DNA of 33,333 nt. Source: a virus. A program made the translations under genes and the position numbers. Under the pieces are notes generated by a model. It did not search any database. It saw only the letters and a list, made by a program, of their open reading frames with translations, and had not been told where the DNA came from. Positions 132 through 11,293 of this stretch are shown in pieces; position 1 is the stretch's first letter, and each line of letters starts with the position of its first letter. Location of the stretch: IMG/VR virus record IMGVR_UViG_3300046680_000280, positions 1 to 33,333 of that record; one strand, written 5' to 3'.

Positions 132-1797
132 GCGCGGAGTCACCCGGTCGGCGGTCTCGAGGGGGCCGCTGCCCGCTTATCTGCAGCCGTCGCCCACCTA
201 CAAGCCGGTCGGCCCCTATAACCCGGCTGCGTACGCGCGGGGTGGCGCACCGGCGCAGGTGTCGAGCGGGACGCAGTGGCTTGGCCGCACGTTTCCGGCC
301 GGCCGGACTGCGACGCTGCCCGGCCCGTCGCAGACCGCGACGCAGGTCGCGAACCAGCAGGTCAACCAGCAGATCGACCCGCAGCTTGCGGCGCAGAACA
401 CGTTCAACACCGGCCAGAACACGGCGATCAAGCAGTTCGCGAACGCGCTCCTGGGGAAGCTGCAGCCGATCGCCGGCCAGGTCGGTCAGGACTACAACCA
501 GGCGATCCAGCAGACCGGGGCGCTCTCCAACCAGGCCGCGAAGTACCTCTCGGCCGCGAACCCGACCGGCGAGGTTGCGAACCTGCTCAGCTCGGAGAAC
601 GCGCCACCCGAGCAGCAAGCGCAGCTGAAGGCGCAACTCGGGCAGACGTTCGGCGGCGGCGCCGGGGTGCTCGCGTTCACCCAGGGGACGGTTCCGGGCA
701 GCCAGCTCGCCACTGACAAGGCCGCGGCTCAGTCGCAGGCGCGCTCCTACCCGCTGATCGCGGCGTTGAAAGGGCAGCAGGACTTGGCTTCGGCGTTGCA
801 GACGCAGAGCGTGGCGCGGCAGAAGCTCGAGGCGACGAAGCCGGCGCTGTATCAGAAGGCGATGCAGAACATCCGCACCAACCAGGCGGCGAGGGCGAAG
901 CTCGGCGAGACGCAGTACGAGTTCTCGGTCAAGGAAGGCGACAAGGCCGCGGCCGCTGCGGTGCCGAAGGTCTACTCGTCGGGCGGCGGGCTCTACAGCG
1001 TCGACCCGAAGACCCAGGCGGTCACCGAGATCCACGCGCCCGCGGCGAAGGCGGGCTCGGCGCCGAAGGTCGACGTCAACTTCTCACGCTCGACCGGGAA
1101 GCTCACCTACATCGGCGCGGACGGTCAGCCTCATTACTTCGTGGACGCGAAGGGGGGCAAGATCCCGTACGTTCCTCCGTCGAGCGGCTCGACGCCGACG
1201 AAGCATTACACGACAGTTTCGGACGCGACCGGCACGTATGTCGTGGACGAAGACACCGGCGCGAGGCGCCGTGTCGGTGGTCCGTCCTCGTCGTTCACGC
1301 CGTCTGCCCCGTCGCCGCACTACACGACCGTGTCGGACAGGACGGGTACGTATGTCGTGAACGAGGACACGGGCGCCAAGCGGCGGGTCGCTGGGCCTTC
1401 TTCGTCGTTCTCGCCGAGCAATAGCGCGCCGACGGTGCATAACGGCCGCCAGTGGGACCCGGTGTCCAAGACGTGGGTGAGAGCGCCGGGGCTGCCCGCG
1501 ACAACGAGCACGAGCGCGCATCCCCTGACCGCGCCCGAGTCCGTCAAGTTCACCAAGAGCGCGACACAGATCGCCACGAACGCCAGGAACGGCGGTACCG
1601 ACCCCAAGGGCAACTACACCCCGCCGGTCGGCCGCGACCAGGCGATCCAGGAGATGAAGATCGCCGGGCTGCTCCGCGATCCGCGGACCGCGAAGATCGC
1701 GATGCAGGCGATCAATCAGGCGTACGGGCCAGCGCCGCGGACGAGCACGGTCAAGTCCGGCGGGTCGTTCGGCGTCCAGGCAACCGCGACGCCGTGA
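106..1797 (+). CDS. Probable internal or tail-associated virion protein with tandem repeat
   Basis: This 563-residue protein has no family I recognise. It starts with ATG behind an AGGGCAGG-type ribosome site and overlaps the upstream stop by one base. Residues 1-60 are rich in Pro, Tyr and Gly. Residues 75-260 are rich in Gln and Ala and look helical. Residues 367-442 hold two copies of a 38-residue unit beginning HYTTVSD and containing GTYVV(D/N)EDTGA. The C-terminus (about 500-563) is charged and helical. It lies directly downstream of the collagen-like fibre region across the junction and upstream of the 960-residue protein, so a late virion role, possibly an ejected internal protein, is inferred from position. 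The stop overlaps the next start (GTGA). Confidence 0.8.
   Translation: MASLYPGAPRGVTRSAVSRGPLPAYLQPSPTYKPVGPYNPAAYARGGAPAQVSSGTQWLGRTFPAGRTATLPGPSQTATQVANQQVNQQIDPQLAAQNTFNTGQNTAIKQFANALLGKLQPIAGQVGQDYNQAIQQTGALSNQAAKYLSAANPTGEVANLLSSENAPPEQQAQLKAQLGQTFGGGAGVLAFTQGTVPGSQLATDKAAAQSQARSYPLIAALKGQQDLASALQTQSVARQKLEATKPALYQKAMQNIRTNQAARAKLGETQYEFSVKEGDKAAAAAVPKVYSSGGGLYSVDPKTQAVTEIHAPAAKAGSAPKVDVNFSRSTGKLTYIGADGQPHYFVDAKGGKIPYVPPSSGSTPTKHYTTVSDATGTYVVDEDTGARRRVGGPSSSFTPSAPSPHYTTVSDRTGTYVVNEDTGAKRRVAGPSSSFSPSNSAPTVHNGRQWDPVSKTWVRAPGLPATTSTSAHPLTAPESVKFTKSATQIATNARNGGTDPKGNYTPPVGRDQAIQEMKIAGLLRDPRTAKIAMQAINQAYGPAPRTSTVKSGGSFGVQATATP
1204..1431 (+). repeat. Two tandem 114-bp coding repeats
   Basis: Two in-frame copies of a 114-bp unit (38 codons) lie at 1204-1317 and 1318-1431 inside the 563-residue virion protein. 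Each encodes HYTTVSD, then a GTYVV strand, an EDTGA turn, an RRV step and a Ser-rich linker. Copies differ at several third positions and a few residues, so the duplication is not recent. The pattern suggests a small repeated beta module. Confidence 0.85.
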
Positions 1798-4676
1798 GCT
1801 CCTACGACTACACCCCGCGCGGGTCGACGGGCGGGAGTGCGGCCGCGGCGAAGTCCTGGGCGCAGATCAAGGCAGGGCTCCTCGCGCCAGTGGAGGGAAT
1901 CTCCGCGGCTGCGAAGCCGACGAAGCCTCCTCCTGCGAAGACCGTGAACGTGCGCGCTCACACCCGCACCATCCCGGTGAAGCCCAAGGGAGGCTCGACC
2001 GGAGGCGGCAACATCGCTCTTGGCCCGTCGGTGACCGAGAGCACGACCTACAAGCCGCCGGCGACGACACGCACCGCCCCGGCGAAGATCGTCCCGCTCA
2101 CCCAGAGCGTCAGGCCGAGCGAAAGCTCGAACGTGAAGCGGTACAAGCCGAGCTTCCCCAAAGAGCCGGTCGCCGGCTATGACGCGGTGCAGCTGAACCC
2201 GGACGGCTCCCTGGCGAAGCAAGGGAACTATCAGCCGGGTGTCCGCATGGTTCGGCGCCCCTACTACACGAACACGAACACGCTGGCCAAGCGCGCCGGG
2301 CCTGCCGGGCAGGAGAGCACACAGTGGAACGCGGCGACGGTCGCGCAGGCCAAGCAGATGCAGGTCGCGAACTACGGCGGGCCGGCGGGTTACGCTGTTC
2401 GCTCGCTGATCCCCGGGGGGCTCGACCAGAGCGGCACGACAAGCGTCGCCAAGGCTCTCGTGCGGGGAGCCGAGGCGGCTTCGACGGTACTTCCGGGCGG
2501 CGGGGTCGGCGAGGCGGCCGGGATCTTGACCGGGCTCAGGGGGCTCAAGGTTCTCCGGGGTGCGAAGGACGTAGCCGAGGCTGCGCCTGCGGCCCATGCC
2601 ATCGTGCGCGGTTACCGAGGCGGCGAAGTAGGTTCCGATGTCGCGCATCTCGCCGAGGATCCGCGGTACGCAGGCGCCTTCGTCAAGAGCGACGCCGAGG
2701 TTAAGGCTCTCGAGGTTCACGCGACGAACCCGCTGGTGATCCGTACGAAGGATCAGATGCGCACGGTCTGGCAGACGGCCACCAGACATGACCCGTCGCT
2801 ACAACCCAGGGAAGCCGTGGCGAAGTGGGCGCGGGCGCAGGGCCACGACGTCGTTGTCTTGGAGCACGGCGTCATGCCCCCGTCTGTCCGAGGGCAAACG
2901 AGCACGGCTGAGGCGCTCGTTCTTCATCCAGAGCGGCTGAAGCCGGCAACGCAAGCGCCCACGTCCCTACTCCCCGCTCCCGCCCCGACACCCGCCGAGC
3001 AGCTTCGCACCGGTCTCAAGGGTGCCCGCGGCATTCGTGCCAAGCAGGAGGCTGGCTACTCCGCTCCGCGCGGTTCGCGTGAGGCGCAGGCACAGGCGAT
3101 CTACAGCAACCCATCCCTCTCTGTCGCGGAGCGTGAGCACGCCGCCAACGCTGTGCTCAGAGGCGCACTCCCGAAGGTCTACTTCGATGGCTTCAAGGAT
3201 CTGACCCCTGGCGTGTTGGAGCAGATGAAGACGATCGTGATGGAGCATCCCACGCTGAGGGGCTACGACAAGAAAACTCTGACCAAGGCGTTGGATGACG
3301 CGCACGCCGGCGAGGTGCCGACGAACAGCGAACTCGACAAGCTCGAGACGGTGTTCGGGAAGGCGACCAGGGACAGCTTCGCGAAGTACGCGACGGACGC
3401 GAGCAAGTGGAAGGACGCCTTCTACGAGGTCGGCAACATCCCCCGCTCCTTGATGTCGTCCGTCGATATCTCCGGTGTGGGACGGCAGGGGCTGGGGGCG
3501 CTGGTCAACCATCCGATCATCACCGGTCGCAACCTGCCCGGCATGATCCGGGCCGCGAACCACGAGGCGTTCTACCAGCAGGGCATGAAGAACCTTGCGG
3601 CACGGCCGAACGCCGGCAAGTACGAGATGGGGAAGCTGGCGGTCACGAATCTCGAGGGCATCAGTAACAGGGAGGAGGCGTTCGCGTCGAACCTGGCCGA
3701 GAAACTGACGGGCCTCGGGAAACGCGAACGCTCCCCGGTGCGCTGGTCGGCTCGCGCCTACACCTACATGCTCGCGCACACGCGCGCGGACATCTACGAC
3801 CACTACGACAGGCTGTTCGCGAACGCCGGCCAGGACGTTCACGATCCGAAGTTCATCAAGGGTCTCTCGACGATGATCAACAGCCTCACCGGGCGCGGCT
3901 TCTCGCTGGGCGGCCTCGCGCACGGTACATCGGGGAAGGCGCTGAACACGGTGCTGTTCTCGCCGAAGTTGATGGCATCCCGCTTCGACCTGCTCAACCC
4001 CGTCTACTACGCGAAGATGCCGAAGGGGCTGCGGCCGCTCGCGTTGCGTCACAGCCTGGCGACAGTCGGGGCGATCGCCTCGACGCTCGAGCTGGCACGG
4101 CTGTCCGGGCTGCACGTCGGCCTCGACCCGCGCAGCGCCGACTTCGCGAAGATCAAGGTCGGCAACACCCGCATCGACCTCGCCGCTGGCTACCAGCAGA
4201 CGGTCAGGATGCTCTACCAGGTCGCCGTCGGGCAGTCGAAATCTTCCGCGACCGGTCAGGTAGTCAACCTTCGCAGCGGCAAGTACGGGCAGAAGTCAGT
4301 CACCGATGTGCTGACGAACTTCTTCGAGAACAAGGAGTCGCCGCTCGCGAGTATCACCTCCGACTACGTGCTCAGGGGCGGCAAGAACACGATCGGGCAG
4401 AAGATGACGCCGGGAAGGCTGGCGGGGAACTACCTCACACCGCTCCTCGGGCAGGATCTGTTCGACATCTACCGCGAGAAGCACGGCGGCGTCAACGGTC
4501 TGGCGTGGGCGCTCGGCGCTGCTCCTCTCGGCGCGGTTGGGGTCGGGTTGCAGACCTACGGCCCGCCCAAGCCGAAGCAGACCGGCGGCTCGAGCTCCGG
4601 CGGAAGCTCCTACGACTACACCCCAAGCGGGTCGGGTGGCGGCAGCTCCTACGACTACACGCCGTCCACTCCGTAG
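1794..4676 (+). CDS. Large polyvalent-type virion protein with probable ADP-ribosyltransferase-like domain
   Basis: The GTG start at 1794 overlaps the upstream stop (GTGA) and gives 960 residues; an in-frame ATG further left lies inside the previous gene. In order: SYDYTP near residue 4; a low-complexity Pro/Thr/Lys linker to about 180; hydrophobic helices at 200-265; a segment at 270-384 with RGYRGG, AEDPRYAGAF, ATNPLV and TAEALVLHPERLK, which resembles phage ADP-ribosyltransferase-like (ART-PolyVal) domains; then a helical region at 540-890 (NIPRSLM, RPNAGKY, NREEAF, FSPKLMASRF) that resembles the LPD38 region of large polyvalent proteins. The C-terminus carries two more SYDYTP motifs in Gly/Ser linkers. 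Such proteins are thought to be injected with phage DNA. Domain names rest on remembered motifs. The transferase call is moderate; the virion role is inferred from late-operon position. Confidence 0.75.
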   Translation: MSSYDYTPRGSTGGSAAAAKSWAQIKAGLLAPVEGISAAAKPTKPPPAKTVNVRAHTRTIPVKPKGGSTGGGNIALGPSVTESTTYKPPATTRTAPAKIVPLTQSVRPSESSNVKRYKPSFPKEPVAGYDAVQLNPDGSLAKQGNYQPGVRMVRRPYYTNTNTLAKRAGPAGQESTQWNAATVAQAKQMQVANYGGPAGYAVRSLIPGGLDQSGTTSVAKALVRGAEAASTVLPGGGVGEAAGILTGLRGLKVLRGAKDVAEAAPAAHAIVRGYRGGEVGSDVAHLAEDPRYAGAFVKSDAEVKALEVHATNPLVIRTKDQMRTVWQTATRHDPSLQPREAVAKWARAQGHDVVVLEHGVMPPSVRGQTSTAEALVLHPERLKPATQAPTSLLPAPAPTPAEQLRTGLKGARGIRAKQEAGYSAPRGSREAQAQAIYSNPSLSVAEREHAANAVLRGALPKVYFDGFKDLTPGVLEQMKTIVMEHPTLRGYDKKTLTKALDDAHAGEVPTNSELDKLETVFGKATRDSFAKYATDASKWKDAFYEVGNIPRSLMSSVDISGVGRQGLGALVNHPIITGRNLPGMIRAANHEAFYQQGMKNLAARPNAGKYEMGKLAVTNLEGISNREEAFASNLAEKLTGLGKRERSPVRWSARAYTYMLAHTRADIYDHYDRLFANAGQDVHDPKFIKGLSTMINSLTGRGFSLGGLAHGTSGKALNTVLFSPKLMASRFDLLNPVYYAKMPKGLRPLALRHSLATVGAIASTLELARLSGLHVGLDPRSADFAKIKVGNTRIDLAAGYQQTVRMLYQVAVGQSKSSATGQVVNLRSGKYGQKSVTDVLTNFFENKESPLASITSDYVLRGGKNTIGQKMTPGRLAGNYLTPLLGQDLFDIYREKHGGVNGLAWALGAAPLGAVGVGLQTYGPPKPKQTGGSSSGGSSYDYTPSGSGGGSSYDYTPSTP
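1797..1826 (+). repeat. 30-bp direct repeat at the 5' edge of the 960-residue gene
   Basis: This copy begins at the last base of the upstream gene's stop and encodes SSYDYTPRGS. It matches 4605-4634, near the 3' end of the same gene, at 28 of 30 bases (the first 20 are identical). A third, 20-bp copy with one difference lies at 4644-4663. The gene is thus bracketed by a short repeat, which would allow exchange or loss of the gene by homologous annealing. Confidence 0.85.
4605..4663 (+). repeat. Two copies of the YDYTP-encoding repeat at the 3' edge
   Basis: Copies at 4605-4634 and 4644-4663 each encode SSYDYTP, separated by Gly/Ser codons. They repeat the sequence at the 5' edge of the gene. 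The neighbouring leftward gene ends in the related YDFTP peptide twice, encoded from the other strand, so the motif is present in inverted orientation immediately downstream. Confidence 0.85.
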
Positions 4677-4711
4677 CCGTCTGACTACGGGGCAGGAGTG
4701 AAGTCGTAGGA
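4647..4711. terminator. Nested inverted repeat between convergent genes
   Basis: An inner stem CCGTAG (4671-4676) pairs with CTACGG (4685-4690). An outer arm TCCTACGACT (4647-4656) pairs with AGTCGTAGGA (4702-4711). Both stops (TAG at 4674-4676, and TAG on the other strand at 4685-4687) lie in the inner stem. No U-tract follows on either strand. It could be a bidirectional terminator, but the pairing is also what two similar peptide tags coded on opposite strands would create. Confidence 0.45.
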
Positions 4712-4924
4712 AGGGCTAGGAGTGAAGTCGTAGACGCTGCCGGCAGTGACAGAGGCAGGATGATGGTCGTCCCCGTCCTTCGTTGCCAGCCCGGCGACCG
4801 AGAAAGCGACAGCAGCCCCGGCCAGCAGCGCCAAAGCCAACACCGCGCGGCGAGCTCGTACCAACTCGAACAGGGCGAGGCCGCAGAAGGTGATACCCGC
4901 ACCGATCGCCAGCCAGAGACTCAT
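4685..4924 (-). CDS. Small two-helix membrane protein with YDFTP tail, possibly holin-like
   Basis: This 79-residue leftward protein (ATG at 4924; an in-frame GTG at 4942 is possible) has two hydrophobic helices at about residues 3-22 and 27-47, separated by a basic RARR turn. A polar acidic/histidine segment and a tail with two YDFTP motifs follow. The hairpin topology with the basic turn inside would put both ends outside. It lies head-to-head with the endolysin and tail-to-tail with the 960-residue gene that carries the matching YDYTP tags. Size and place suit a holin-like or lysis-control protein, but no family is recognised. It is the only leftward gene in the late region. Confidence 0.6.
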   Translation of the reverse strand: MSLWLAIGAGITFCGLALFELVRARRAVLALALLAGAAVAFSVAGLATKDGDDHHPASVTAGSVYDFTPSPSYDFTPAP

Positions 4925-4980
4925 CGGCGGCCCAAGGTACACCGCTCGACCACGCGCGCACCTAGACCAACGGGGGGAAG

Positions 4981-5679
4981 ATGCCCATCACGCTGACGCG
5001 GACGCTGACCATGACGAACCCGCTGATGCACGGCGCCGACGTCACCGCGGTGCAGAAGCTCCTCACCAGCAAAGGCTTCCCCTGCAAGGTCGACGGCTAC
5101 TTCGGCACCGAGACCGGGAACGCCTGCGTCAGCGCGAAAACACGGCTGCTGTACCCGAAGGGGAAGCGCACCCCCACCTGCGGCAAGTACCTCGTCGAGA
5201 AGCTCGAAGGGCACGCCGACTTCAAGCCGCTACCGCCCGCGTCGACCCGGCAGCGGTACGTGGCGGTGCTGCGCCAGTTCTACAGCGAAGGGTCGAACTG
5301 GGACTACGCGCAAGTACGGCCGATCCCGCACCCCGGACAGAAGGGCCGCGTGAAGACCGACTGCTCCGGCGGGGTCACCTACGCCGCCGAGACGGCGAAG
5401 GTCCCCGACCCGAACGGGCGCGGCTTCGACGGACTCGGGTACACCGGCACGCTCTTGGACTCGAAGATCTGCAAGCGCGTCACCGTCCTCCAGGCCAGGC
5501 CGGGTGACCTGATCGTGTACGGCGCCTACCCCGGCCACCATGTCGTCGCGGTGCTCGAGGCCGGATCGGACCCGCTCGTCTGGTCTCATGGCGGGCAGGG
5601 CGATCCGAAGATCATGCGCCACTCCGAGCAGGCCCGGTATCAGCCGCCCGGTATCGCTGTGCTTTCGTTCCTGCCGTGA
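4981..5679 (+). CDS. Endolysin: peptidoglycan-binding domain plus NlpC/P60 peptidase
   Basis: The 232-residue protein starts with ATG seven to nine bases after a GGGGGAAG ribosome site. Residues 10-75 form a PG_binding_1-type domain (LMHGADVTAVQKLL, then DGYFGTET). Residues 90-230 look like an NlpC/P60 cysteine peptidase: the nucleophile is Cys128 in TDCSGG and the histidine is 186 or 187 in PGHHVVAV, with RPGDLIVY just before it as usual in the family. The enzyme would cut peptide stems of host peptidoglycan for release. No signal peptide is seen, so export should depend on a holin, and small membrane proteins flank it on both sides. Confidence 0.9.
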   Translation: MPITLTRTLTMTNPLMHGADVTAVQKLLTSKGFPCKVDGYFGTETGNACVSAKTRLLYPKGKRTPTCGKYLVEKLEGHADFKPLPPASTRQRYVAVLRQFYSEGSNWDYAQVRPIPHPGQKGRVKTDCSGGVTYAAETAKVPDPNGRGFDGLGYTGTLLDSKICKRVTVLQARPGDLIVYGAYPGHHVVAVLEAGSDPLVWSHGGQGDPKIMRHSEQARYQPPGIAVLSFLP

Positions 5680-6011
5680 AACGCTCGACCAGTGAGTGGG
5701 TCGCTGTCCTCCTGGCGGGCGGGCTCTCCTTCGCGGTTGTTGCGCTCGTCCTCGGCGTGACCGTCGCCGCGATCAAGAACGGCTCGACGGCGAGCACTTT
5801 GAGCGAGAACGAGACCCAGGTCCTCAACACCGCGTTCGCGGCGATGGCGGGTCTGCTAGGGGCCTTTATCGGCGGTCGTCGCGCAGGCAACGGCCACAAG
5901 GAGCCGCCCGAGGAGCCGTGGCCGGAGCCGCAGCCCGCGAAGCACATGGCGTTGCCGCACTGGCCGGATCGGGAGACGACCGCGGAGCTGCCGCCCGACC
6001 CGCCGAAGTGA
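5676..6011 (+). CDS. Small membrane protein of the lysis cassette, holin candidate
   Basis: GTG at 5676 overlaps the endolysin stop (GTGA), giving 111 residues. Two hydrophobic helices are visible at about 8-33 and 50-68. Between them is a short polar turn (NGSTAS, ENET), and behind them a GGRRAG basic stop and a Pro/Glu-rich tail (PPEEPWPEP). The Gly/Ala-rich second helix and the position right after the endolysin suit a class II type holin or a related lysis membrane protein. The function is inferred from topology and neighbours; no specific holin family is recognised. Confidence 0.75.
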   Translation: MKRSTSEWVAVLLAGGLSFAVVALVLGVTVAAIKNGSTASTLSENETQVLNTAFAAMAGLLGAFIGGRRAGNGHKEPPEEPWPEPQPAKHMALPHWPDRETTAELPPDPPK

Positions 6012-6076
6012 CGTGGGTGCTGCTCATCCTCGCGCTGCTGCTGACGGCCGCGATCTTTCTGGCGCTTCGCAAGTAG
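6008..6076 (+). CDS. 22-residue single-helix membrane peptide
   Basis: A GTG start overlaps the preceding stop (GTGA), and the frame ends at TAG 6074-6076, directly before the terminator stem. The peptide is one hydrophobic helix (WVLLILALLLTAAIFLAL) with a basic RK end. The tight coupling to the two lysis genes, the perfect transmembrane composition and the fact that the terminator begins at its stop all favour a translated gene. It could be a small holin, an antiholin or a membrane anchor. It is short enough to be missed by usual length cut-offs. Confidence 0.6.
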   Translation: MTWVLLILALLLTAAIFLALRK

Positions 6077-6118
6077 CCCGTCCGCCCTCCTCTCCTGGTG
6101 GGGCGGGCGGGCGTTTCT
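6076..6118 (+). terminator. Rho-independent terminator of the late/lysis operon
   Basis: GCCCGTCCGCCC (6076-6087) pairs with GGGCGGGCGGGC (6101-6112) over 12 positions with one G-U pair. The loop is 13 bases and a short GTTTCT tail follows. It separates the rightward lysis genes from the leftward repressor gene. Confidence 0.85.
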
Positions 6119-6134
6119 GCGTTAGCGGACGAGC

Positions 6135-6386
6135 CTAAGCCGCCTTCGAGTTGCTATGCCCCGGCCGGTAGAGGCCCGCCAAGTCCATCAGCGCCATCGT
6201 CGTGGCGAAGTCGGGGCCGTTCTCACCTGAGAGCCACCGCGAGACCTTCCGTGTCTGGCTCGCCTTCACGATGCCCTCGCGCACGAGGATGTCGATCAGT
6301 TCGGCTGGGCGCGTGACTTCGAGGTGTTCCATCACCTCGCGCATGAACAAGGTCACGCGCGGGTCGACCTTCTTCGACTGAGCCAC
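6135..6386 (-). CDS. Leftward HTH repressor, candidate immunity repressor
   Basis: The 83-residue reading from GTG 6386 has a helix-turn-helix of the Cro/CI (XRE) type at about residues 25-70 (RPAELIDILV, TRKVSRWLSGENGPDF, TTMALMDLAGL). Longer in-frame starts at 6449 and 6470 would add a segment lying over the operators and promoter. I chose GTG 6386 because a promoter (TTGCGG, 17 bases, TACCGT) ends six bases before it, which would give a leaderless message. It diverges from a second XRE gene across paired operators, the classical arrangement of a lysogeny switch. Which protein maintains lysogeny is inferred from orientation. Confidence 0.75.
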   Translation of the reverse strand: MAQSKKVDPRVTLFMREVMEHLEVTRPAELIDILVREGIVKASQTRKVSRWLSGENGPDFATTMALMDLAGLYRPGHSNSKAA

Positions 6387-6392
6387 ACCATG

Positions 6393-6421
6393 ACGGTAAT
6401 GACATGTCGGGATGGCCGCAA
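6393..6421 (-). promoter_or_regulatory. Leftward repressor promoter
   Basis: On the minus strand a -35 TTGCGG (6421-6416) and a -10 TACCGT (6398-6393) are 17 bases apart. The operator GACATGTC (6401-6408) sits in the spacer, so binding there should block this promoter. Transcription would start at or next to GTG 6386. Confidence 0.5.
6401..6408. promoter_or_regulatory. Operator half-region OL, GACATGTC
   Basis: A perfect 8-bp palindrome, preceded by AAT and followed by GGG. The identical octamer at 6445-6452 lies 44 bp away centre to centre, close to four helical turns, so two dimers could sit on the same DNA face. Confidence 0.6.
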
Positions 6422-6442
6422 TGGCGAGAGTGGCAGTCTTAT

Positions 6443-6471
6443 TTGACATGTCGTCCGATACGTGGCACACT
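6443..6471 (+). promoter_or_regulatory. Rightward early promoter
   Basis: A consensus -35 TTGACA (6443-6448), a 17-base spacer and a -10 CACACT (6466-6471) preceded by TGG give an extended -10 promoter. The second operator overlaps the -35 hexamer, so repressor binding should shut off the early operon. The start point would fall near 6478. Confidence 0.65.
6445..6452. promoter_or_regulatory. Operator OR, GACATGTC
   Basis: This is the second copy of the palindromic octamer, lying within the -35 element of the rightward promoter. It is identical to 6401-6408. Confidence 0.6.
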
Positions 6472-6492
6472 CGTCACCCCATGGAGATGACA

Positions 6493-6789
6493 ATGAAGTT
6501 TTCGGGCGCCAAGCTACGCGCTCTTCGCAACGCTGCCGGCCTGACTCAGGCCGAGCTGGCGCACCGCGCGCACGTTCGGGAGCGCCAGATCATCCGCTGG
6601 GAGAACGATCAGAACGTGCCGCGAACACCGGCTGTCGCGGTGCTCGCCTCGGTGTTCGGCGAGCCGCTGACGAGCTTCTTCACCGAGGGCGCGGACGAGA
6701 CCGAGGACGACGAGGAGTCTGACCCAGTGGCCGTACTGGTCGCAGCGATTCGGGATCTTGTGCGCGCCGAGATCAGGAAGGCCGCGTGA
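6493..6789 (+). CDS. Cro-like XRE family regulator
   Basis: From ATG 6493 (GGAG six bases upstream) the protein is 98 residues; ATG codons at 6481 and 6487 are in frame but lack a ribosome site. Residues 1-60 are a canonical XRE helix-turn-helix (LRALRNAAGLTQAELA, RERQIIRWENDQNVP, LASVFGEPL). An acidic linker (DETEDDEESD) and a C-terminal helix that could dimerise follow. It is the first gene of the rightward early operon and diverges from the leftward repressor. A Cro-type role is inferred from this place. The stop overlaps the next start. Confidence 0.85.
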   Translation: MKFSGAKLRALRNAAGLTQAELAHRAHVRERQIIRWENDQNVPRTPAVAVLASVFGEPLTSFFTEGADETEDDEESDPVAVLVAAIRDLVRAEIRKAA

Positions 6790-7646
6790 GCGAGATCGAA
6801 GTCATCCCCGTCGGTCAGCTCACGCTTTTCGACCTTGCAACGATCGCGAACGAGGAGCACGCGCTCGCGCGGCAGGCGTTCGTCTCGACGCTCGAGCATG
6901 CACAGCGCGCGGGCGAAGCGCTTATCTCGGCGAAGGCCCAGGTACAGCACGGCGACTGGCTGGATTGGCTCGAGGCGAACTTCGATGGATCCGAGCGCAT
7001 GGCCCAGCGATACATGAGCATCGCCTCAAATCCGACACGCGTGTCGGATTTGGAGGAGCCGACGTTGCGAAAGGCGCTCGAGGCGATCTTCGGCAGGGAC
7101 GAACAAGAGCGACCGACGATAGAGCGGCCACCACCCCCCGCGGGCACCTACGACCTCGTCTATGCCGATCCGCCGTGGCGGTACGAGGCGCCCGGCGGCG
7201 AGACACCTGAACTCCGCGCGGTCGAGCGGCATTACCCGACGATGACTGTCGAGGAGATCGCGACGCTCCCAGTGCCGGCCGCGCCCGACGCTGCCTGCTT
7301 CCTCTGGGCAACGAATCCACTGCTGCGGGAGGGGCTCGAGGTGCTCGACGCGTGGGGGTTCACGTACCGCACCAACCTTGCGTGGGTGAAGGACCGGATC
7401 GGGATGGGCTACTGGGTCCGCGGCCAGCACGAACTGCTGCTGATCGGGCGACGCGGTAGCTTCGGACCACCCGCCGAAAGTCTGCGGCCGCCGTCGGTGC
7501 TCCACGCGCCCCGGCTTGAGCACTCCGCGAAGCCCGAGGAGCTGTACGACCTACTCGAGTCGCTGTACCCGAACGCGACCCGGATCGAGATGTTCGCTCG
7601 CGCACAACGGCCCGGGTGGGATTCGTGGGGAGCGCTCGCGGCGTGA
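6786..7646 (+). CDS. DUF3102-like domain fused to MT-A70 adenine methyltransferase
   Basis: This 286-residue protein starts with GTG overlapping the upstream stop. Residues 20-100 resemble DUF3102, a helical domain common in phage and ParB-like proteins (EEHALA, AGEALISAK, DWLDWLEANF, RMAQRYM). Residues 118-280 are an MT-A70 type SAM-dependent adenine methylase. Asp128 to Trp131 form the catalytic DPPW motif; FLWATN and a C-terminal PEELYDLLESLYP motif also fit. It probably makes N6-methyladenine in phage DNA, as protection or regulation. The linker region contains a 26-bp perfect palindrome. Confidence 0.88.
   Translation: MSEIEVIPVGQLTLFDLATIANEEHALARQAFVSTLEHAQRAGEALISAKAQVQHGDWLDWLEANFDGSERMAQRYMSIASNPTRVSDLEEPTLRKALEAIFGRDEQERPTIERPPPPAGTYDLVYADPPWRYEAPGGETPELRAVERHYPTMTVEEIATLPVPAAPDAACFLWATNPLLREGLEVLDAWGFTYRTNLAWVKDRIGMGYWVRGQHELLLIGRRGSFGPPAESLRPPSVLHAPRLEHSAKPEELYDLLESLYPNATRIEMFARAQRPGWDSWGALAA
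7027..7052. promoter_or_regulatory. 26-bp perfect palindrome inside the methylase gene
   Basis: The 26 bases from 7027 to 7052 equal their own reverse complement, with the centre ACGCGT and arms starting CAAATCC. They encode residues 81-89 (SNPTRVSDL), between the DUF3102-like and methylase domains. The peptide resembles a conserved step of DUF3102 proteins, but perfect symmetry over 26 bases needs matching codon choices. It may be a protein-binding site. Confidence 0.7.
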
Positions 7647-9348: not shown

Positions 9349-10403
9349 GCATCCTCGAGCAGCTGTTCCCGAGCGAGGCGCCCGCGCTCGCGTGGCCCGC
9401 CGGGCTCCCCGACCATCTGTCGCCGTCGTCGCTGAAGACCTGGATGCGCTGCAGGGAGCAGTGGCGCCAGGTGTATCTGCTTGGCAAGCGCCAGCGCCCC
9501 GCTGCCGCGATGATCTGGGGGAGCGCGCACAACTTCGCGCTCGTCGAGCAGAACTTCGCGCAGAAGATCGGGACGGGCGAGGACCTCTCGGTCGGCGACG
9601 TCGAGCTCGCGTTCGCGGAAGGGTTCGACCAGCGCGTCGACCGCGAGGACGTCGACTGGAAGACCGACAAGCCCGCGGAGATCAAGGACCGCGGGGTGAA
9701 GCTCGCGGCTGCCTACCACCAGCAGGTGTCCGCCTCGGTGTACCCGCTCACGGTCGAGGAGTCGTTCAGCATCGATGTCCCCGGTGTCCCCGTGCCGGTC
9801 GTGGGACGGATGGACGTGACCGAGGAGACGCGCACGATCGACCTGAAGACCGGCGGGAAGCGTGAGATGAACGCCGACAACGTCTTCCAGGGGCGCGTCT
9901 ACCAGCTCGCGCGCCCGGTGGCGATGGAGTTCCACCTTGCGACGAAGACGAAGGTGCCGGGGATCTACACGCCGCCGGAGTACCCGGAGTTCGGGTTCGC
10001 GTACTCGGAGGTCGAGCAGGCACGAACCCGAACGGTGCTCGCGCTGCTCGCCGCCGACATCGCCTCCACGTACGCGCAGTTCGGCCCCGATCAGACGTGG
10101 CCGGGCGCGTTCACGTACGGGTGGGCGTGCTCGTACTGTGGGTTCAAGCCGACGTGCGCGTACTGGCCCAGCGAGACGCCGACGTTCGGCGACACGCTCG
10201 CCGGCGCCACCACCAGGCCCGAGGACACGCTCGAAGCCGAGCGACTCACCCTGACCCGCACCCTCTTGGACATCGGCGACAAGCGCGACACGTTGCCGAC
10301 CGTGGTCGCGGCGATCGACGCGAACCTTAAGTCGCGTCCATTGGGCGAGCATGTCGCCTGGCTCAGGGCGCAGCTCGAGCGCGCATCGGAGGTGATCGCG
10401 TGA
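9345..10403 (+). CDS. RecB/Cas4-like PD-(D/E)XK exonuclease with iron-sulfur cysteines
   Basis: This 352-residue protein starts with GTG 9345. It has the RecB-type nuclease motifs: SPSSLKTWMRC (Cys36), WGSAHNF (His62), GRMD (Asp157), TIDLKTG (Asp166, Lys168) and QGRVYQLA (Gln182). Cys262, Cys265 and Cys271 follow. One early and three late cysteines are the layout of the 4Fe-4S cluster in Cas4 and AddB nucleases. It probably resects double-strand ends to give the single strands that Erf anneals. Its stop overlaps the integrase start. The cluster is inferred from cysteine spacing. Confidence 0.88.
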   Translation: MSILEQLFPSEAPALAWPAGLPDHLSPSSLKTWMRCREQWRQVYLLGKRQRPAAAMIWGSAHNFALVEQNFAQKIGTGEDLSVGDVELAFAEGFDQRVDREDVDWKTDKPAEIKDRGVKLAAAYHQQVSASVYPLTVEESFSIDVPGVPVPVVGRMDVTEETRTIDLKTGGKREMNADNVFQGRVYQLARPVAMEFHLATKTKVPGIYTPPEYPEFGFAYSEVEQARTRTVLALLAADIASTYAQFGPDQTWPGAFTYGWACSYCGFKPTCAYWPSETPTFGDTLAGATTRPEDTLEAERLTLTRTLLDIGDKRDTLPTVVAAIDANLKSRPLGEHVAWLRAQLERASEVIA

Positions 10404-11293
10404 CCGTCTATGCTCTCGACCCACTGAAGGACCTCCGCCATCGGGAGACGGCCGCAGCGCGCGAACTCGCGGACTTCCTCAAGTACCTGGAGCTGGGCAA
10501 CAAGGCCGCGCGCACACTCGACGCCTACGAGAGGACCTACGCCGCCCTCACGCTCGCGTTCCCCGGGAAGCGGTTCGACGAGTTCACCGACGGCGACCTC
10601 GCCCAGGTGCTCGCCCGCTACCCCGCGAAGAGCAGGCATCAGAACAAGTCGCACCTGAACTCGTGGTTCAAGTGGGGCGTGAAGACCAGGCGGATCACCT
10701 CGAACCCCGTCGACCTCTTGCCGGAGATCCGCTACCGGCCCTCCCGCGACTACGACCTGTTCAGCGAGGCCGAAGCCGACGCGGTCTGCGCGCTGCCAGC
10801 CCCGGACGGGCAGCTCGCCACCCTGATGTTCTGGCTCGGCTTGCGCCTGGCCGAAGCTCGTGGGCTGACGGGGAAGCGGTTCGACTTCGAGCGCCGCCAG
10901 GTGCTGGTCGTCGACGGCGCCAAGGGCGGCAAGAGCCGGCGGGTGCCGATGATCGGCCGTGTCGAGACCGCCGCCTCCGATCTGCTCGTCCTCGAGGGGA
11001 TCGGCCCCGACGACTACATGTGGTACAGCCGCGGCGACAAGCACGACCGCCAGGTATCCGACCAGCGCTTCTACGACTGGTGGCACGGCGCGCTCGACGA
11101 GGCCGGTGTCCGTTACCGCAAGCCGCACCTGGTTCGGCACACGTTCGCCTCACGCTTGCGCGACATGGGGGTGCCGATGGAGGACCTGCAGCAGATCCTC
11201 GGGCACGACTCGATCCGCACGACCGTCGACGTGTACGCGCACTCGAGCTCGGAGAGGATCGGCGACCGTCTGCGCGAGATCGTGGAGGGCTAA
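10400..11293 (+). CDS. int: Tyrosine recombinase, phage integrase
   Basis: GTG 10400 gives 297 residues. An N-terminal SAM-like core-binding domain (about 20-105) precedes the catalytic domain. All active-site residues are visible: Arg149 (FWLGLRLAEARGL), Lys178 (GGKSRRVP), His243 with Arg246 (KPHLVRHTFAS), His269 (ILGHDSIRTT) and Tyr279 (DVYAH). The N-terminal arm-binding part is short. It should integrate the circular genome into the host chromosome, and with the repressor pair it marks the phage as temperate. The gene ends the recombination block, and a candidate attP lies directly downstream. Confidence 0.94.
   Translation: MTVYALDPLKDLRHRETAAARELADFLKYLELGNKAARTLDAYERTYAALTLAFPGKRFDEFTDGDLAQVLARYPAKSRHQNKSHLNSWFKWGVKTRRITSNPVDLLPEIRYRPSRDYDLFSEAEADAVCALPAPDGQLATLMFWLGLRLAEARGLTGKRFDFERRQVLVVDGAKGGKSRRVPMIGRVETAASDLLVLEGIGPDDYMWYSRGDKHDRQVSDQRFYDWWHGALDEAGVRYRKPHLVRHTFASRLRDMGVPMEDLQQILGHDSIRTTVDVYAHSSSERIGDRLREIVEG

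Follow-up and report, generated by a model that had tools for sequence, protein, structure and literature searches.

Two convergent genes with a common terminal peptide

The window, a 33,333-base record of an uncultured virus, contains two genes that converge tail to tail from opposite strands and code for proteins ending in the same short peptide, YD[YF]TP, called the tag here. The plus-strand gene (1794–4676; GTG start at 1794, stop at 4676) codes for a protein of 960 residues that its place and fold mark as a putative ejection-type internal virion protein; its GTG overlaps the stop of the preceding gene by four bases (GTGA). The minus-strand gene (4685–4924; ATG at 4924, stop at 4685, with an alternative GTG start possible at 4942) codes for a membrane protein of 79 residues. 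The main result reported below is that related phages carry different tags, and that in several of them a convergent membrane protein bears the tag of its neighbor.

The 960-residue protein ends in SSYDYTP-SGSGGG-SSYDYTP-STP, with tags at 4611–4625, within a Gly/Ser linker, and at 4650–4664; the 79-residue protein ends in SVYDFTP-SPS-YDFTP-AP, with tags at 4718–4732 and 4694–4708. These four copies confirm the observation, made in a preliminary description of this DNA, that one peptide ends two oppositely coded proteins. A six-frame scan of the window for [YFWH][DEN][YFWH][TSA]P gave five matches only, all at the ends of these two genes. The fifth match, MSSYDYTP (tag at 1803–1817, plus strand), is the start of the 960-residue protein, which is therefore tagged three times. 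A search with the tag DNA found five exact sites and one site with 2 mismatches, versus 1.1 expected.

The inverted repeat previously noted across both stops is real. In a region spanning the ends of both genes (4608–4735), it has 17-nucleotide (nt) arms with 88% complementarity, and its innermost stem, CCGTAG (4671–4676) with CTACGG (4685–4690), takes in both stop codons. RNA folds of 4590–4740 were stronger than those of shuffled sequences for both strands (z of -2.6 and -3.8). The repeat and the folds speak for the explanation that the common peptide merely follows from the structure of the DNA: with an inverted duplication, or the hairpin of a bidirectional terminator, lying over the convergent ends, both strands would read the same peptide without any need for it. 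Because this genome has a strong third-position G+C bias, the identity of the tag DNA is expected from the peptide alone, and the palindrome by itself is therefore no proof of an inverted duplication. Between the N- and C-terminal copies on the plus strand, 20 bases are identical within a 41-column aligned block; the local alignment of plus with minus strand around the tags was marginal, being equalled by 3 of 1000 shuffles. The tail of the 79-residue protein is closer to the plus-strand tail of a relative, L126 (SYDFTPAP), than to that of its own neighbor (SYDYTPSTP).

Matched tags change together in related phages

Early scans with the 960- and 79-residue sequences gave no viral-contig match, and the first scan of genome contigs gave none; scans guided by alignments succeeded, yielding 8, then 40, then 441 large-protein loci on viral contigs (80 of the 441 were listed) and 13 on genome contigs. 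At 45 of 104 loci with enough downstream sequence, a minus-strand open reading frame (ORF) ends near the large gene, at -3 to +60 bases relative to its stop. The ends of convergent ORFs were compared with those of the neighboring large proteins, a match being a score above the 99th percentile of mismatched pairs, for the 17 of these 45 loci that have a membrane-type ORF and for 33 non-membrane ORFs. Six of the 17 membrane-type ORFs matched their own neighbor (permuted mean 0.52, maximum 5, p = 1e-4), namely those of the window, L144, L162, L170, L177 and L191, versus 1 of the 33 non-membrane ORFs (p = 0.26). The tag of L124 also matches; this locus lay outside the 17-locus test owing to a 15-nt gene overlap, as did L122 and L126, where one-helix genes run 51 and 63 bases, respectively, into the large gene. 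DGYFPK of L122 is mostly the antisense image of its neighbor's tag, and TYDYG of L126 has a partial likeness only.

The matched tags differ from phage to phage. In L124, the tail of the membrane protein, ATGYFSDSGSSGYFAK, is wholly unlike that of the window, and the ejection protein ends in STGYFGT...SPYFSG...SGYFAK, a GYF tag being common to the two neighbors. In L144 a membrane tail SPYFRTP stands beside SPYFAS...GGYFATP, so that within this first membrane family the pair switches from YDFTP (window) to GYF (L124) to YF (L144). A second membrane family (PKYQIQSVRVD), unrelated to that of the window, is found in L170, L177 and L191. Here the membrane tails KSDIWKTFE, KIKINKIRLID and STKLKFRF stand beside ejection-protein ends KSDIWATFE, KIKINKISPIKVSF and STKLKFNF, respectively. 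Co-switching in this family thus runs through SDIWKTFE, KIKINKI and STKLKFRF, and the three ejection proteins are 73–79% identical despite their different tags. In L162, RWYEY stands beside AWYEY. On the sequences compared, then, tag changes between phages hit both genes in those phages that carry a tagged membrane gene. The earlier proposal of one functional tag on two proteins is thus supported and extends to relatives; what it had missed were the N-terminal copy and the switching of tags. Such tags, or a tag common to an ejection protein and a membrane protein, were not described in the literature searched, which was mostly outside subscription journals, and the matched, switching pair fits no known kind.

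The relatives also bear on whether peptide or DNA is conserved. Seven alignments of plus- with minus-strand tags, from six phages, contain 40 codons for the same residue, 21 of them identical; in the 40 codons there are 19 synonymous differences at 21.7 synonymous sites. Because the synonymous sites have diverged between plus and minus tags, it is the peptide, and not the DNA hairpin, that has been kept. That the tag matters solely at the DNA level, as an operator or a hairpin, was rejected as the principal explanation: 69 differences were counted at 97.2 synonymous sites, using the first tag pair in 20 loci and the window, units picked by peptide likeness whose proportion of nonsynonymous differences (pN) is low by choice. 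Overlapping palindromic gene ends in L122 and L124 add to the case for a by-product of DNA structure. Against it, besides the synonymous differences, the tags stay constant while linker lengths vary, the match is confined to membrane-type ORFs, and the N-terminal tags lie far from any palindrome; we consider this explanation improbable. The related objection in the preliminary description, that the similarity is an antisense image of a palindromic region, fails where coding regions do not overlap and synonymous codons differ, but could still explain the tags nearest the stops in L122 and L124, whose paired genes overlap. Its other suggestion, an inverted duplication that spread the tag, may well give the route to the second gene without being the whole story; the inverted repeat may be the path by which a tag gets copied between genes.

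The large protein is tagged throughout its family

Terminal tags are a trait of the large protein as such. The N-terminal repeat test covered 36 of 38 proteins with both ends (35 relatives and the window), open-ended loci being excluded and the near-duplicates L008, L010, L011 and L033 having been removed by hand beforehand. In 16 of the 36, the N-terminal 50 residues held a 7-residue tandem repeat that exceeded the 99th percentile of internal windows, a level passed by 6 of the 673 internal windows themselves. Among genes of at least 100 residues on the contig pieces, 12 of 24 large proteins had repeats at the 99th-percentile level, versus 22 of 1040 others (Fisher, 3e-13). In a wider set of 94 out of 105 distinct closed loci, the remainder being open at the N-terminal side or shorter than 500 residues, tandem repeats were present in 29 N-termini and 14 C-termini of the 94, versus 15 of 1601 internal windows. 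The repeated tags include DINWEKY/DINWDKY/NIDWNKY (L004), DYLTKWM/DYLSKWM (L022) and PPGFIPD, present twice (L038). The same tag can occupy both ends of a protein, as with IDFRP (L043), DWWDDPSF (L190) and YDPFKDPDL (L132). N- and C-terminal tags matched above the 99th percentile within 13 of the 94 proteins (permuted mean 0.82, maximum 8, p = 5e-5), two of the 13, L122 (GPPAPK) and L179, not being tags by eye. Tag patterns were set by hand for each locus, as were the VSSY starts of L122, L124 and L126. Large proteins 70–79% identical over 450–780 residues can bear unrelated tags.

Certain tag types recur: LDDNGNP in L027 and L032, F[IV]PD in L030, L031, L038 and L150, and PPGYE in L025 and L026. 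Tag classes may thus form a limited repertoire. The N-terminal tag peptides, used alone as queries, gave no matches. The preliminary description had proposed looking for tandem YD[YF]TP C-termini elsewhere; as a DNA pattern this gave 0 matches, a result limited by the pattern, as L126 has a tandem tag written in other codons. We also considered and rejected the idea that a tag is common to many proteins of a phage. Strict patterns, run on the window and on the available contig pieces of 24 relatives with a defined tag pattern, matched the ejection gene only, except in the window, and a loose search of ORF ends gave no excess (score at least 28: 21 of 12,913 for own tags versus 19.5 expected).

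Most relatives are tagged and yet have no membrane gene to match, which indicates that the peptide does something in the ejection protein itself. One rival reading of the tag on both proteins is a processing or degradation signal, a single protease reading the terminal peptide of each. The C-terminal site and the flexible linker suit such a signal, but the peptide also stands at the extreme N-terminus, often in tandem, and rapid tag switching would require a switching protease; we rate this as very improbable indeed.

Place and fold of the large protein

The 960-residue protein has no PHROG or Pfam family match, and tblastn found one annotated phage relative only, a hypothetical protein of MW202497.1. 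The gene order in L009 is head closure (phrog_578), DNA ejection (phrog_598), an unnamed gene, the large protein, a small gene and holin (phrog_3427). The large gene there follows head-closure and ejection genes and precedes lysis genes, the position expected of an ejection protein, and in the window an endolysin gene lies downstream. We take its place in L009 to be that of the last ejection protein in P22-like phages. An AlphaFold2 model of the last 560 residues, built from a 31-row alignment, had a mean predicted local distance difference test score (pLDDT) of 76 and a predicted TM-score (pTM) of 0.71; the tagged tail is disordered in it (model residues 527–560, pLDDT <50). The model matches giant proteins of uncultured phages in BFVD, two of the top six being named large-polyvalent-protein domain proteins, with weak rows for internal virion protein D (E 0.75) and protein inside capsid D (E 0.72). 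Against the PDB it gave no match at E <= 0.001 (best VIA Z 5.0, to unrelated chains), and sequence and fold searches of the PDB with the large protein found no usable relative. Place and fold together suggest an ejection-type protein, probably injected with the DNA. The term virion protein, used in the preliminary description, holds in this sense, as a conclusion drawn from position and fold.

Members of the family on genome-bin contigs (L109–L121) are labelled as Patescibacteria groups, Chloroflexi, Elusimicrobia and others, bins being an uncertain guide to the host. One 62-kb contig, G019, carries two copies of the large protein, at 5417–7393 (L031) and 51646–53790, with N-terminal tags of the FIPD and DWEDV types; the contig is perhaps two phages joined.

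The tagged membrane proteins

Hydropathy and the charge rule give the 79-residue protein two hydrophobic helices joined by a loop of positive charge, and both its ends, the C-terminal tag included, are predicted to lie outside the membrane. Of the six frames, its own scores best for coding whether or not the tags are counted, yet among coding windows this score ranks only near the 5th percentile. There was no tblastn match for it among phages or plasmids; the membrane proteins of the window, L124 and L170 matched nothing in PHROG and gave no Pfam hit above threshold, and an alignment scan with the membrane protein recovered only the contig of L124 itself. The large proteins of L124 and the window are about 43% identical over the aligned part, and the convergent homologue of the 79-residue protein in L124 is identical to it at 49 of 62 residues (79%, over the first ~60 residues). 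The preliminary description had held that the case would fall if the membrane-protein frame were not conserved in relatives. It is kept in L124, with 48 of 58 residues identical in the membrane part and its own neighbor's different tag in the tail. For this part pN was 0.10 versus a proportion of synonymous differences (pS) of 0.25, and for the PKYQIQ family 0.21–0.27 versus 0.54–0.73; in both families, selection has constrained the membrane part. The L144 membrane protein is a one-helix relative of that of the window (local score 63 versus a shuffle maximum of 45). By the charge rule the tail is predicted to lie outside in the window, L124, L170 and L191.

A 17-bp element at 4926–4942, directly upstream of the ATG of the 79-residue gene (GGCGGCCCAAGGTACAC on the plus strand), recurs exactly in L122 (9785–9801), L126 (9752–9768) and L134 (9768–9784), and in diverged form in L124. 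It stands directly upstream of different minus-strand membrane genes and may be a start-site or promoter signal. Small proteins with lipobox-like motifs (LSGC, LQGC) are coded on the minus strand in L170 (9847–10296), upstream of the tagged membrane gene, and in L004 (8468–8800), convergent with the large gene. They recall exclusion lipoproteins.

Neighboring genes

The next gene downstream of the pair in the window codes for a peptidoglycan-binding endolysin (4981–5679, plus strand). In L202 (7001–7660), an endolysin 80% identical to it is followed by a similar two-helix gene, while the genes upstream in L202 are unrelated to those of the window; the lysis cassette therefore moves between phage types. 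The window also codes for terminase and a major head protein. With an integrase at 10400–11293 (plus strand), the phage is probably temperate. Two overlapping divergent small genes, at 6135–6470 (minus) and 6412–6789 (plus, a helix-turn-helix regulator), are likely the lysogeny switch.

Discussion

The reading that we find most likely, and propose tentatively from the sequence comparisons, is that the membrane protein is a decoy for the tag that would block ejection by phages bearing the same tag, a form of superinfection exclusion. It is preferred because SieA stops ejection proteins and because T7 gp16 needs its last residues. The matched and co-switching tags, their conservation as peptides, the constrained membrane parts and the tails predicted outside in four phages count in its favor as well. 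In P22, the inner-membrane protein SieA acts against the trio of ejection proteins, and phages escape it through changes in the C-terminal regions of gp16 and gp20; whether it acts by direct contact or by occluding a host partner was left open (PMC10883804). Infectivity of T7 depends on the final five residues of gp16 (PMC8954989). In the proposed mechanism, the tag would be a docking peptide of the injected protein during infection, whether it binds itself, a partner in the envelope or a further protein of the conduit. Its copy on the membrane protein, which in most cases with a clear prediction would face outward from the cytoplasmic membrane, would fill the docking site, and a cell carrying the phage would thereby be shut to further phages with that tag. 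In the tail-to-tail, inverted-repeat layout, one conversion event could copy a new tag into both genes; tags could stay matched despite their turnover because such an event would rewrite both.

Several observations weigh against the exclusion decoy. No match was found for 11 of the 17 convergent membrane-type ORFs, and the minus-strand gene of L134 has no tag. The minus-strand genes of L122 and L126 show no sign of purifying selection (pN 0.28, pS 0.30; 33 codons). The charge rule puts the L162 tail inside and is ambiguous for L144, L122 and L126; no sigma-70-like promoter for the 79-residue gene was found in 4400–5300. The C-terminal part of T7 gp16 is thought to reach the cytoplasm (PMC8954989), and the large protein itself belongs to no PHROG or Pfam family. 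The integrase found in 4 of 11 records (window, L124, L134 and L144) favors the decoy, but none was found in the other 7, which include some fragments and also the L162 and L191 contigs of ~41 and 43 kb; because of these seven, not all carriers look temperate.

The decoy shares with SieA a membrane protein coded by a phage, here by prediction, and an ejection protein, here putative, as the target, here a proposed one. It differs in carrying the target's own tag, no peptide common to SieA and its targets being noted in the portions of PMC10883804 used here, and the tagged membrane proteins have 53–85 residues. Like gp16 of T7 and P22, the large protein is big, the putative product of the last ejection gene, and has a C-terminal tail, which in T7 is functional (PMC8954989); unlike them, the window protein has no family match or significant match to a solved structure, and its family has switching tags at both ends. 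The genes of large polyvalent proteins lie among those of the virion, and packaging and injection are predicted for their products (PMC5512222); the fold-level similarity of the window protein is to BFVD models that include some of that name. Neither "short motif" nor "tandem repeat" appears as a term in the portions of PMC5512222 used here.

A tag with its own function in the ejection protein is also what shared docking predicts, in which both proteins bind one phage partner (portal, scaffold or another ejection protein) and the membrane protein is a conduit helper or membrane-side dock, not an inhibitor. Tags at both ends of the ejection protein, mostly without a convergent tagged membrane gene, suggest such a function, and encapsulin cargo offers a precedent in short terminal targeting peptides, some repeated within a protein (PMC8346489). 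Here too a short terminal peptide lies in a disordered tail (model pLDDT <50) and in N-terminal tandem tags, but cargo peptides direct proteins to a shell (PMC8346489), whereas this tag is also on a membrane protein. In every matched case the membrane gene lies opposite to the late-gene strand, which is odd for a virion part, and it is absent from most relatives. On balance we think shared docking unlikely.

If instead the peptide associates with itself, the membrane protein might capture or anchor the injected protein by tag-tag contact, in exclusion or in infection. Self-association would directly explain why the N-terminal, C-terminal and membrane tags are identical and change together. The amyloid motif partners of NLRs and effectors sit in adjacent genes. 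Diverse matched motifs occur in such pairs of amyloid signalling proteins (PMC9815663, PMC5485727), as they do here; neither window protein has an NLR domain by PHROG or Pfam. The tags here are 4–10 residues long and many contain proline and acidic residues (YDYTP, FIPD, DWWDDP), unlike cross-beta motifs, and we rate self-association as quite improbable.

A stronger form of the exclusion decoy is a polymorphic code of self-recognition, in which the tag would be an allele-like password that the membrane protein displays against phages with the same password only, escape driving tag change and one recombination rewriting both genes. We hold this to be doubtful as matters stand. If true, phages would have their own version of allele-specific self-recognition, written in only a few residues, while simple exclusion would add a new variant of a known activity. 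Both touch on how ejection proteins find each other or the envelope and on how exclusion proteins recognize kin, and a switching peptide on an injected and a membrane protein is a directly testable handle. Should exclusion prove to be the wrong reading, the tag matches still make a strong functional link, at the level of a peptide, between genes that no annotation joins. If it is right, this large group of uncultured phages (441 loci) would be a source of many different peptide tags.

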